A stretch of DNA of 34,776 bases from Candidatus Zymogenus saltonus (GTDB taxonomy: Bacteria > Desulfobacterota > Zymogenia > Zymogenales > Zymogenaceae), in the NCBI GenBank assembly GCA_016929395.1, contig JAFGIX010000063.1, positions 1 through 34,776 of the forward strand, in the 5' to 3' direction. The notes below the pieces were generated by a model. It was not told the DNA's origin. It saw only the letters and a program-made list of their open reading frames with translations, and searched no databases. Each line of letters opens with the position of its first letter. The first letter of the stretch is position 1. The translations under genes and the position numbers were made by a program. This document shows positions 10,077-14,275 of the stretch, piece by piece.

Positions 10077-10367
10077 TCAGGCGTTCTTTTTGAAAAGCTC
10101 TTCCAACTTCGCCTTGGCGTGTTCCACCTCGCCCCCGGAGTTCCCATCCCTCTTTTCCAACTTGAAGCGAAAGTAATCGCAGAAGTTGTTTCCACCCTTA
10201 TTCCCCACAAACTCGCTCTGGGGCTCCTTGCACTGGTTGTAACTCCCGGAATCGTAGAAGATACAATTGTAGCAGATGCGCAGGTCCATTCCGCAAGCGG
10301 GACAGGTGTCTCTGACGGAGATGTAGTCGGAGATTATCGGCTCTTTACATTGATGACAGAATTTCAT
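10077..10367 (-). CDS. Small cysteine-rich zinc-ribbon protein
   Basis: The 96-residue protein has eight cysteines: C4/C7 and C22/C25 (two CxxC pairs, a zinc ribbon), then C32/C35, C46 and C63, enough for a second metal site. A lysine/glutamate-rich helix closes the C-terminus ('EHAKAKLEELFKK'). Similar short cysteine proteins of unknown function are common in Deltaproteobacteria. It is transcribed away from the thiolase operon, with a 408-bp divergent intergenic region between them. No SD is obvious before the ATG. A role in nucleic-acid or protein binding is possible but not shown. Confidence 0.7.
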   Translation of the reverse strand: MKFCHQCKEPIISDYISVRDTCPACGMDLRICYNCIFYDSGSYNQCKEPQSEFVGNKGGNNFCDYFRFKLEKRDGNSGGEVEHAKAKLEELFKKNA

Positions 10368-10775: not shown

Positions 10776-11960
10776 ATGTTACGAAAAGTAGCCATTGTCA
10801 GCGCCCACCAGACGAAATTTGAAGAGAAGAAGGCGGACGAGCGCTTCCAGGAGATGTGCTACCCGCTGGTTAGAAAATGTCTTGACGACACGGGGCTCGT
10901 TTTTGTTCCGGGAAGGGGAATAGATTTTGCCATAACGTGCTCCGACGACTTTTTCGATCAGCGTACCATCTCCGACGGACCTATGGGCGACCTTGTGGGA
11001 ACTGGAAGGTGGGGAGGGGAGGAAAAGGTCGCCTGCGACGGTGCAGAGGCGATCCAATACGCCGCGGCGGGGATAGCCTCGGGACACTACGACATAGTCA
11101 TCGTCCTCGCCCACGCGAAGGAATCACAGGTAGATTCGAGGAACATAGTGACCTTCCACGCCTTCGAGCCTTTCTACACGAGATTTTTGGGCATGGACTA
11201 TACCCAAGCCCTGGGCCTCCAGGCCGAATCTTACATGAACAAATGGGGCGTCACGGAAAAACAGCTGGCGGCGATAGCCGTCAGGGCGGCCAAAAACGGG
11301 GCGAAGAATCCGAACGCCCAACGCACCGGGAGCATCAAGGTGGACGACGTCATGAAATCGAAGGTAGTGGTCTCGCCGATCAAGGAGCTCGACCTCTATC
11401 CCGTAAGCGATGGGGCGGTCTGCATGATCCTCGCCGAGGAGACGAAGGCCAGGGTACTGACCGACAAGCCGGTCTGGATTACCGGCTACGGAAACTGCTA
11501 CGATTCCTACTACCTCGGAGACAGGAACCTCTACGAGTCGACCAGCCTCCCTAAAGCGGCTTGGAGCGCTTACCGCATAGCCGGTATTATCGATCCGATG
11601 GAGGAGTTTGACATAGCCGAGATCAGCGTCCAGGCCACCTATCAGGAGCCGCTCTGGTACGAGGGACTTGGGCTCGCCGAACAGGGAAAGGGTATGGAGC
11701 TTTTCGAGTCGGGGAAGACCGATATGGGGGGGAAGCTCCCGGTCAACCCGTCGGGCGGCCAGCTTTGCGGAAATCCCCTTTTGCTCTCCGGCATCGTAAG
11801 GGGGGCGGAGGCCTTTCTCCAGCTCAGGGGTGAGGCCAACGGCTATCAGGTAAAGGGAGCCGGAAGGGCGCTGGTACACGGCACGGCCGGGCCTGCGGGA
11901 CAGTTCCACACGGTTTTGGTCCTTGAAAACGACAAGGCACAAGAGGGGGGGAAATCATGA
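10776..11960 (+). CDS. Thiolase-fold protein (SCP-2/lipid-transfer type), first of pair
   Basis: The 394-residue protein is a full-length thiolase-superfamily member: N-terminal 'KVAIVSAHQTKF', a nucleophile loop 'VACDGAEAIQYAAAGIASG' (85-103) and C-terminal 'LPVNPSGGQLCGNP' (321-334). In canonical thiolases the loop reads C-A-S-G; here the aligned position is A86, with C87 one residue late. The GHP motif with the catalytic histidine is replaced by G-N333-P334. H368 in 'ALVHGTAG' matches the conserved C-terminal histidine of SCP-x-type enzymes. A classical condensation mechanism is therefore doubtful. AGGGAGGA precedes the ATG, and the gene overlaps the next thiolase by 4 nt (ATGA). The DUF35 genes that follow point to a heteromeric complex acting on CoA thioesters; the substrate is unknown. 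Confidence 0.85.
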   Translation: MLRKVAIVSAHQTKFEEKKADERFQEMCYPLVRKCLDDTGLVFVPGRGIDFAITCSDDFFDQRTISDGPMGDLVGTGRWGGEEKVACDGAEAIQYAAAGIASGHYDIVIVLAHAKESQVDSRNIVTFHAFEPFYTRFLGMDYTQALGLQAESYMNKWGVTEKQLAAIAVRAAKNGAKNPNAQRTGSIKVDDVMKSKVVVSPIKELDLYPVSDGAVCMILAEETKARVLTDKPVWITGYGNCYDSYYLGDRNLYESTSLPKAAWSAYRIAGIIDPMEEFDIAEISVQATYQEPLWYEGLGLAEQGKGMELFESGKTDMGGKLPVNPSGGQLCGNPLLLSGIVRGAEAFLQLRGEANGYQVKGAGRALVHGTAGPAGQFHTVLVLENDKAQEGGKS

Positions 11961-13126
11961 CTAAGAGAATGAGAAACGTCGCCATCTCCGGGATCGGTCA
12001 GACCCGCCACCGCGGACACCGGGAGGACGTCAACATGGTGGAGCTCGTCGCCGAGGCCGTAGAGGAGGTCCTCGCCGATTCTAAGATGGATCTCAAAGAC
12101 ATCGACTGCATAGTGCACGGCAACATGGAGCTCTTCGAGGGGATCCACCAGCCGGACATGTGGCACGTCTTGGGTGACGGCGCCTACGGAAAGGCGGGCT
12201 TCAGGATTACCACGGGAGGCACCACGGGCGCCACGATAGCCTGTTCCGCCGACCACCTCGTCGCGTCCGGAATGTACGACTCGGTCCTGGCGATCGGGTG
12301 GGAAAAGCAGGAGGAGGGGATGACGACCACGGGAATCACCAACATGGCCGACCCACTCTGGGAGCGGGAGGTGCAGACCGGCGCCATAACCGGAACCCAC
12401 GGCGTTATGATGATGAACAAGTTCGGGGAGCCGGCAAACCAGGCCGCGGCGGAGCTGAGGGTCTTGATGGCGAACAACGCCAGGAAGAACTACAAGGCGC
12501 ATCTCAGGATCGAGATCACGAGGCAGGACGTCCTGGAGTCGAGGGTCCTGGCATGGCCGCTTCGGCTTCTTCACATGTGCCCGGAGTCGAACGGGGCCTG
12601 CGCAGTCCTGTTCGTCTCGGAGGAGCTGGCGAAGAAGCTTCCGCAAAAACCGGTCTGGATGCACGACCATGTAACGGTCCACCGCCAGGAGACCTTCGAT
12701 CTGGTAAACATGGGCGATCTCGACACCCACGGCGAGGCCGCAAGAACGCTCTATGCCAGAAACGGGATCGTAGATCCGATAAAGCAGATAGGGGTGTTCG
12801 AGATGTACGATCCCCAAAGCTGGTGGGCCCTCGACTGGATTGGGAAATTCCTGATGCTCGAAAACGGTGAGCAGATCGAAATGGTCTTGAACGGCGATTT
12901 CGCCATAGACGGCAAGTTTCCGCTTAATCCATCGGGGGGCGTGGTATCGTCGAACCCGATAGGCGCCACGGCAATCATAAGGGTTGCGGAAGCGGCCCTC
13001 CAGATCCGCGGAAACGCCGGCGACCACCAGGTTCCTAAAGACGTCAAGCTTGCCCTGTCCTCTGGATTCGGCGGGACTTTCTGGACGGTATTTCATCTTC
13101 TGGGAGCCGAAAAGCCGGACAAATAG
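11957..13126 (+). CDS. Thiolase-fold protein, second of pair, lacking the catalytic cysteine
   Basis: The 389-residue protein has the same overall thiolase layout as its neighbour, with 'NVAISGIGQT' at the start and 'LNPSGGVVSSNPIGAT' (323-338) near the end. The nucleophile loop reads G88-T-T-G91, so the canonical cysteine is glycine. The GHP histidine is absent (S-N333-P334), and the C-terminal catalytic residue corresponds to serine (S368) in 'ALSSGFGG'. It therefore appears catalytically altered or purely structural, or works by a different chemistry as in the Ltp2-type thiolase-like aldolases. Its ATG lies within the stop of the previous gene, indicating coupled synthesis. An AAAGGAGG site and the first DUF35 gene follow 17 bases after its stop. 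Confidence 0.84.
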   Translation: MTKRMRNVAISGIGQTRHRGHREDVNMVELVAEAVEEVLADSKMDLKDIDCIVHGNMELFEGIHQPDMWHVLGDGAYGKAGFRITTGGTTGATIACSADHLVASGMYDSVLAIGWEKQEEGMTTTGITNMADPLWEREVQTGAITGTHGVMMMNKFGEPANQAAAELRVLMANNARKNYKAHLRIEITRQDVLESRVLAWPLRLLHMCPESNGACAVLFVSEELAKKLPQKPVWMHDHVTVHRQETFDLVNMGDLDTHGEAARTLYARNGIVDPIKQIGVFEMYDPQSWWALDWIGKFLMLENGEQIEMVLNGDFAIDGKFPLNPSGGVVSSNPIGATAIIRVAEAALQIRGNAGDHQVPKDVKLALSSGFGGTFWTVFHLLGAEKPDK

Positions 13127-13143
13127 AAAAGGAGGTTTTACCT

Positions 13144-13620
13144 ATGGGTACCAAGACAGATAAAGAGGGAAGGGAGATCGTCGAGATCCGCTACGAGATG
13201 GCGATCCCGGGAACCTTTTCCACGGGGCCGATCATGGGACACATGCTCAACAAGCTCAAGGACAAGGAGCTGTGGGGAAACCGATGCGGCAAGTGCCGGA
13301 ACGTCCTCTTTCCTCCGAAGATCGTTTGTCCCAAGTGCTTCGAAGAGCCGACCGAGTGGGTGAAGCTGGACGAATGGGGCTACATCGCCACATTCGACGT
13401 GGTCCACTTCCCCACGGTAAATCCGCTTACCGGGATTATGAGGGAGGTCCCCTACACGACCCTTATCGTCGCCCTCCCCAACGGCGGCGGATTTTTCCAC
13501 TTCTGCCTCGAACACGACCCGGAAAAGCTCGCTCCGGGGAAGAGGGTCGTTCCGGTCTGGAAGGAAAAACGGGAGGCCCGCCCATCCGATCTTGAGGGTT
13601 GGGTGCTGGCGGAGGATTAA
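13144..13620 (+). CDS. DUF35 zinc-ribbon/OB-fold protein, first of pair
   Basis: The 158-residue protein has an N-terminal helical region (about 1-43), a rubredoxin-like zinc ribbon with C48-G-K-C51 and C62-P-K-C65, and an OB-fold (about 70-150) with 'ATFDVVHFPT' and 'PGKRVVPVW'. DUF35 proteins bind acyl-CoA substrates and bridge partner enzymes; known examples are BbsA of the benzoylsuccinyl-CoA thiolase, the archaeal thiolase/HMG-CoA synthase bridge, and ChsH2 with the aldolase Ltp2. All zinc ligands are intact. The ATG has AAAAGGAGG 12 bases upstream, a very strong site. It is the third gene of the thiolase operon, 17 bases after thiolase 2. Confidence 0.87.
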   Translation: MGTKTDKEGREIVEIRYEMAIPGTFSTGPIMGHMLNKLKDKELWGNRCGKCRNVLFPPKIVCPKCFEEPTEWVKLDEWGYIATFDVVHFPTVNPLTGIMREVPYTTLIVALPNGGGFFHFCLEHDPEKLAPGKRVVPVWKEKREARPSDLEGWVLAED

Positions 13621-13691
13621 TCATTTGGCAATAGTTTACAATGATCTGGCAATAATCGAGCGGATTGAAATGAAAACAAAGGGAGAAAGAT

Positions 13692-14174
13692 ATGTATACA
13701 ACAGATAAACTGCCGCTGGATCAGAAAGACTGCTTCGGCAAGAGGGGCCTGATGAGCATCCCCTACCGCTACTTCGCCGGAGTGTTTTTATCCAGGGCGC
13801 TGATCGCTCTCAGGGACGAAAAGAAGATCTTGGGTGCGAGGTGCGAAAAATGCGACAAGGTCTACTTTCCGCCGCGCTCCCGCTGCGAGAGGGACTTCTC
13901 GAAGATGACGGAGCTTGTGGAAGTCGGCCCCGAGGGAACCGTCGAGGAGTTCACAGTGGTCAACTACGAGGAAGAGTATTTCAAGAAGTTCTGCCCCATG
14001 CTCGACATCCCCTACACGATGGCCCTGATCAGGCTCGACGGGGCGTCGACGAAGATACTTCATCGAATCCCAGGGGACAAGGTCAAGAGGGGAGACCGCG
14101 TAAGGCCCAAGTGGCTTGATGACGACCAGAGGGAGGCGATGATCACCGATATCGAGTATTTCGAGAAGGTGTGA
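13692..14174 (+). CDS. DUF35 zinc-ribbon/OB-fold protein, second of pair
   Basis: The 160-residue protein has the same helix, zinc ribbon and OB-fold order as its neighbour. The metal site is incomplete: C51-E-K-C54 and C65-E-R-D68, so the fourth ligand is aspartate or zinc is lost. The OB part includes 'GPEGTVEEFTVVNY' and 'GDRVRPKW'. The N-terminal extension ('MSIPYRYFAGVFLSRALIALRDEKK') is helical and could contact a thiolase. A GGGAGAAAG site precedes ATG 13692, 71 bases after the previous stop, still in the operon. A strong terminator follows. Two thiolase-like proteins with two DUF35 proteins suggest two matched pairs, one of each normal and one altered, but pairing is inference. Confidence 0.85.
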   Translation: MYTTDKLPLDQKDCFGKRGLMSIPYRYFAGVFLSRALIALRDEKKILGARCEKCDKVYFPPRSRCERDFSKMTELVEVGPEGTVEEFTVVNYEEEYFKKFCPMLDIPYTMALIRLDGASTKILHRIPGDKVKRGDRVRPKWLDDDQREAMITDIEYFEKV

Positions 14175-14222
14175 CAACAAAACGGTATCAAGTTAAATCC
14201 CAAGAGTAATTTAAATAATCAA

Positions 14223-14256
14223 GGGCGCACGGGATATCTTCCCGTCGCCCTTTTTT
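14223..14256 (+). terminator. Rho-independent terminator of the thiolase operon
   Basis: GGGCG (14223-14227) and CGGGA (14230-14234) pair with TCCCG (14240-14244) and CGCCC (14246-14250) in one interrupted stem, followed by six T residues (14251-14256). It is 50 bases after the second DUF35 stop codon. Confidence 0.85.
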
Positions 14257-14275
14257 AAGCGGGATTTTTTTATCC

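Follow-up and report, generated by a model that had tools for sequence, protein, structure and literature searches.

A thiolase-fold pair with two DUF35 partners in Candidatus Zymogenus saltonus as a probable heteromeric aldolase of the Ltp3-Ltp4 type

What reaction can be expected of an operon that encodes two thiolase-fold proteins, neither of which retains the residues of a thiolase? We addressed this question for a four-gene operon of Candidatus Zymogenus saltonus (Desulfobacterota), found in a window of 34,776 nucleotides (the whole stretch of DNA analysed), which makes up the entire contig G000:C63 (genome size 3.76 Mb). On the plus strand, the operon comprises T1 (10776..11960, 394 amino acids), a thiolase-fold subunit of the type of actinobacterial Ltp4, T2 (11957..13126, 389 amino acids), one of the Ltp3 type, and two DUF35 zinc-ribbon/OB proteins, D1 (13144..13620, 158 amino acids) and D2 (13692..14174, 160 amino acids). 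Our reading, to which we give a probability of roughly 60%, is that the operon encodes a heteromeric, DUF35-bridged coenzyme A (CoA)-thioester aldolase of the Ltp4-Ltp3 type. An initial annotation had described two full-length thiolase folds followed by two zinc-ribbon/OB proteins, and the open reading frames (ORFs) and Pfam matches agree with it. Its wider proposal of a heteromeric acyl-CoA carbon-carbon bond enzyme with non-canonical chemistry also finds support.

Active-site residues were read from a 227-row alignment, in which the nucleophile column was located by means of 12 cysteine-bearing thiolases of relatives, and were counted over 75 T1 and 76 T2 relatives of the window clade. The column of the nucleophilic cysteine is occupied by G89 in T1 and by G88 in T2 (codon at 12218..12220, plus strand), the latter invariant in 76/76. 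The histidine of the GHP motif is replaced by Asn333 in both proteins (63/75 T1 and 76/76 T2 sequences), so that the N333-P334 pair pointed out earlier is borne out by the alignment, as is the correspondence of H368 in T1 to S368 in T2. A third position had been overlooked: at the histidine of the HDCF motif T1 has Ser284, a position that varies within the clade (S, C, M, N), whereas T2 has an invariant tyrosine, Tyr284 (76/76). Because the cysteine column holds glycine and the GHP histidine is asparagine in both subunits, neither T1 nor T2 is a classical thiolase; lacking both residues, they likewise fall outside the SCP2-type thiolases.

An alternative, put forward in the initial annotation, is that T1 is an active thiolase using C87 (codon at 11034..11036, plus strand) of its A86-C87-D88-G89 loop, with T2 as a degenerate partner. 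The fold of T1 is intact, and a pairwise phmmer alignment sets C87 on the cysteine of 7yvy with a one-residue gap; such an alignment can slide C87 onto the cysteine because the T1 loop is one residue shorter. However, C87 is private to this genome: the 75 T1 sequences carry Gln (67), Met (4), Thr (1), Ser (1) or Ala (1) at this column, with Cys (1) in the window itself, and L043 and L044, the two other genomes of the family with a full T1, have Thr instead. Its conservation (1/75), together with its position off the aligned cysteine column, leads us to reject C87 as the nucleophile. The observation that would have refuted the initial annotation, C87 and a histidine at canonical places in T1, was not made for the histidine nor, in the family alignment, for C87. 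T2, moreover, is the more conserved subunit (115 near-invariant positions vs 69 in T1), and we consider this explanation very improbable.

The accompanying idea of one degenerate thiolase subunit is not supported either, as neither protein has a nucleophilic cysteine and both are highly conserved and co-vary. T1 is no inactivated duplicate of a working T2. In a mirror-tree comparison of 72 T1-T2 pairs the correlation was r = 0.89, the best of 999 permutations reaching 0.23; this co-variation is consistent with obligate pairing of the two proteins, although it is not proof of contact and shared species history contributes to it.

Which chemistry, then, do the residues of T2 suggest? Sal and Ltp2 are thiolase-fold aldolases with DUF35 partners that carry a tyrosine at the place of the HDCF histidine; Sal has glycine for the nucleophilic cysteine and its catalytic tyrosine in a YDCY motif, and the catalytic tyrosine of Ltp2 lies in YDHF (PMC12329534). 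T2 shows the same combination of a tyrosine at this place (Y284, codon at 12806..12808, plus strand) and the absence of a cysteine nucleophile (G88), in 76/76 sequences. Since tyrosine stands at the HDCF histidine and glycine at the cysteine as in Sal, the signature of T2 is that of an aldolase and not of a thiolase. Sal-Shy and Ltp2-ChsH2 also share with the window operon the thiolase fold and a DUF35 partner, and Sal the glycine in the nucleophile column, whereas each of them is built as a homodimer from a single thiolase-fold protein, the DUF35 domain being fused to a hydratase.

Among the comparison systems of the initial annotation, Ltp2-ChsH2 is of the right sort, but BbsAB and the archaeal thiolase are not the nearest models, the Ltp3-Ltp4 pair being closer. 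BbsAB resembles the window proteins in fold, in its DUF35 partner and in high structural similarity; the window subunits differ in being without the nucleophile and the GHP histidine, and they score 111.5 and 85.3 bits against a BbsAB NCBIfam cut-off of 750. Membership in the BbsAB and archaeal thiolase groups is ruled out by the NCBIfam cut-offs together with these residues. A further multi-subunit system of this fold with a DUF35 partner retains the cysteine in its thiolase, unlike T1 and T2, and 3-hydroxy-3-methylglutaryl (HMG)-CoA synthase is the closest relative of neither subunit.

Kinship with Ltp3-Ltp4 was assessed in a tree of 116 sequences, built with a quick method, rooted at the midpoint only, and with support from the Shimodaira-Hasegawa-like approximate likelihood ratio test (SH-aLRT). 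T1 clusters with actinobacterial Ltp4 in a 50-row clade (SH-aLRT 100) and T2 with Ltp3 in a 49-row clade (SH-aLRT 96), both separate from the cysteine-bearing SCP2/archaeal-type thiolases. The actinobacterial (Streptomyces clavuligerus and Tsukamurella) plasmid modules consist of a tandem OB-fold protein (two OB stretches), a PRK07937 protein and a PRK08313 protein; from gene order, protein length and the Rv3521-Rv3523 locus, we take PRK07937 to be Ltp4 and PRK08313 to be Ltp3. The best NCBIfam match of T2 is PRK08313 (306 bits vs a cut-off of 514), and T1 scores 169 bits against PRK07937 (cut-off 419); being below the cut-offs, T1 and T2 are relatives of these subfamilies and not members.

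The likeness to the Ltp3-Ltp4 module (Rv3521-Rv3522-Rv3523 type) extends to two thiolase-fold subunits from the same two clades, two DUF35/OB domains, and adjacent co-directional genes. Ltp4-type proteins and T1 share a DG loop with a one-residue deletion, and Ltp3-type proteins and T2 share the Gly-Tyr-Asn set. In contrast, the DUF35 domains are distributed over two proteins in the window and lie on one in the Ltp3-Ltp4 module, T1 has Ser at the HDCF position where the two Ltp4 proteins examined have His, and no sterol genes lie near the window operon. Relatives of the window type differ from Ltp3-Ltp4 in having PHP, SCP2 and BKACE genes alongside and in belonging mostly to anaerobic lineages instead of actinobacteria. 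Reviews describe Ltp3-Ltp4 as a heteromeric aldol lyase that acts on sterol side chains branched at C24 (PMC6678751, PMC6593523).

Structure prediction agrees with the fold assignment. Single-chain AlphaFold2 models had a mean predicted local distance difference test score (pLDDT) of 86.7 and a predicted template modelling score (pTM) of 0.90 for T1, and 83.8 and 0.89 for T2, with low-confidence loops at residues 59-69 and 123-139 of T1 and 60-64 and 122-144 of T2; in our own reading of the models, these loops may match, by position, the Sal loops that shape the active-site cleft. The top 50 PDB matches in Foldseek searches with both models were all thiolase-superfamily chains, and the fold search does not tell thiolase and aldolase apart. 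Another explanation is a cysteine-independent enzyme working in the synthetic direction, by aldol or Claisen condensation or by acyl transfer as in PhlABC: structure matches to its comparison systems are as good as those to Ltp2 and Sal, and aldol reactions are reversible. However, acyl transfer in this superfamily needs an acylated cysteine, which T1 and T2 do not have, and the neighbours of the relatives (acyl-CoA dehydrogenases, ligases, BKACE) look degradative, so that we regard a synthetic role as unlikely. A literature search returned nothing on DUF35 in Desulfo- organisms or on heteromeric thiolases.

For the Ltp4-Ltp3-type aldolase that we favour, we propose the following mechanism. 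By analogy with Sal-Shy and Ltp2-ChsH2, T1 and T2 would pair pseudo-symmetrically as a thiolase-fold dimer, flanked on each side by one DUF35 protein. The catalytic site would be housed in T2, where Tyr284 may act as the base that deprotonates the beta-hydroxyl group of a beta-hydroxyacyl-CoA, an oxyanion hole provided by the Gly88 loop would take the place of the cysteine nucleophile, and Asn333 may stand in for the GHP histidine; T1 would contribute loops and conserved residues to the common cleft. The predicted retro-aldol reaction would split a 3-hydroxyacyl-CoA, probably a beta-branched one bearing a tertiary alcohol, into a ketone and a shorter acyl-CoA, or run in reverse. Such a step would carry beta-oxidation past a beta-branch with no need for a 3-ketoacyl intermediate.

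The substrate of the window operon has to be inferred from its relatives because no pathway genes lie beside it. Across 82 loci of the window clade, the gene order is PHP, T1, T2, D1 (often with two SCP2 domains fused) and D2, after which genes for BKACE, an acyl-CoA ligase and CoA-transferase subunits, a second pair and genes for two acyl-CoA dehydrogenases often follow. A PHP gene occurs in 60/82 loci, an ACAD1-type gene in 34/82, BKACE in 31/82 and the two CoA-transferase subunits in 17/82 and 14/82. These neighbours, which include paired acyl-CoA dehydrogenases, a MaoC hydratase, an acyl-CoA ligase and SCP2 domains, would together make a beta-hydroxyacyl-CoA. A separate count took in 59 genomes of the phylum, which hold 35 T1-T2 pairs. 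BKACE lay within 10 kb of 8/35 pairs, with 0.26 expected; about five of these cases are independent, since three of the eight are orthologous within one family and two share a single BKACE gene.

The linkage to BKACE hints at a beta-keto acid as a product of the cleavage and raises a narrower form of the favoured reading, in which an HMG-type aldolase feeds BKACE. A carboxymethyl-branched 3-hydroxyacyl-CoA would be split into a free beta-keto acid and an acyl-CoA, BKACE would move the acetyl unit of the keto acid to acetyl-CoA to give acetoacetate and a shortened acyl-CoA, and the CoA transferase would activate the acetoacetate (BKACE chemistry after PMC6365646). C24-C25 cleavage after C28 carboxylation has been proposed for Ltp3-Ltp4 (PMC6678751), and by our own derivation this cleavage would leave a beta-keto acid. 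However, none of the operons examined contains a recognisable carboxylase, the window operon is without a BKACE neighbour (in this genome BKACE adjoins a paralogous pair on another contig, C8), and BKACE could serve elsewhere in the pathway. We therefore hold this narrower form as tentative. Equally speculative is a wider proposal, that the complex may cleave the carbon-carbon bond in an anaerobic pathway, as yet undescribed, for carboxylic acids with a beta-branch (isoprenoid- or sterol-like). This pathway would run from an HMG-type retro-aldol cleavage through a beta-keto acid to BKACE and acetyl-CoA, SCP2 domains would present the lipid, a PHP metallohydrolase would be dedicated to it, and it would be spread across Desulfobacterota, Spirochaetes, Syntrophomonas and Bathyarchaeota.

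Several points weigh against an aldolase of the Ltp4-Ltp3 type. We know of no activity, complex or substrate for any close relative, and the window operon stands alone, with no adjoining pathway genes. T2 is distant from Ltp3, and T1 falls below every NCBIfam cut-off. The second catalytic residue of the described aldolases is not retained: in T2, Pro286 takes the place of Cys304, the general acid in Sal, and Tyr344 of Ltp2 seems, by spacing only, to correspond to Asn333. Candidates for the proton donor of T2 are its invariant histidines H54, H182, H238 and H242. The literature considered here itself bases the role of Ltp3-Ltp4 on gene studies (PMC6678751, PMC6593523).

The layout of the operon and the gene calls were also examined. 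The initial annotation had described the genes as partly overlapping, which is correct for T1 and T2 (4 bases), but T2 and D1 are 17 bases apart and D1 and D2 71. Pfam places Thiolase_C_1 and Thiolase_N above cut-off in T1, and Thiolase_C_1 above and Thiolase_N slightly below (25.6 vs 26.4 bits) in T2; zf-ChsH2 is above cut-off in D1 and D2, and OB_ChsH2_C is above it in D2 and slightly below in D1 (25.6 vs 27.1). Orthologues of T1 and T2 in the same family (80-94% identity) and 177 T2 relatives in the genome contig collection indicate that these are not chance ORFs. A predicted intrinsic terminator, made up of a hairpin and a T run behind it (14221..14252, plus strand), closes the operon 46 bases 3' of D2; the stretch 14200-14265 folds at -23.9 kcal/mol (z -3.7), and the hairpin was recovered by a pattern scan too, although that scan overall did not exceed shuffles. 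A promoter scan found nothing above shuffles. Upstream of T1 lies a small divergent ORF of 96 amino acids (10077-10367, minus strand), and, judged only by eye, a similar zinc-ribbon-like ORF seems to precede T1 in L043 (10720-11004).

The two DUF35 proteins differ in their zinc sites, which are an intact Cys4 set in D1 (C48, C51, C62, C65) and Cys3Asp in D2 (C51, C54, C65, D68; window 13842-13895), compared with a Cys3His variant in the zinc ribbon of Sal-Shy. The Cys3Asp site is shared with Zymogenaceae orthologues; CC..CD occurs in a total of 24 D2-type sequences, most others being Cys4. In many relatives D1 carries two N-terminal SCP2 sterol-carrier domains (L052, 6130-7296), which D1 of the window is without. 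The PHP-domain protein that accompanies the T1-T2 module is about 190 amino acids long, with metal-ligand motifs that look intact (L052, 3147-3725). Its close homologues (E below 1e-40) occur in 7/59 genomes, 6/7 of which have a window-clade pair; the homologue of the window genome lies on another contig (G000:C35:16817-17350), and no recognisable pathway genes were found around it or around the homologue in G014. The paralogous D-T2-T1-D set on G000:C8 (L040, 4152-12684) has a more complete pathway around it than the window operon, with an acyl-CoA ligase, a MaoC hydratase, an acyl-CoA dehydrogenase and BKACE. A second, deeply branching T1-T2-DUF35-DUF35 set lies in the same operon in L052 (12619-15898), which suggests that two successive cleavages may take place in one pathway.

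In summary, the four genes very probably encode a single enzyme complex, most likely an anaerobic relative of the Ltp3-Ltp4 enzymes of sterol side chains that splits or joins carbon-carbon bonds by an aldol reaction. Ordinary beta-oxidation stalls at beta-branched acyl-CoAs, and the route by which anaerobes pass a beta-branch is, to our knowledge, poorly understood. A widespread pair that is annotated as thiolase, is not a thiolase and bears an aldolase signature provides a testable candidate for this step. Some annotations as acetyl-CoA acetyltransferase or thiolase in sulfate reducers and syntrophs may accordingly misstate the chemistry, and T1-T2 operons offer natural variants of the little-studied Ltp3-Ltp4 aldolase.

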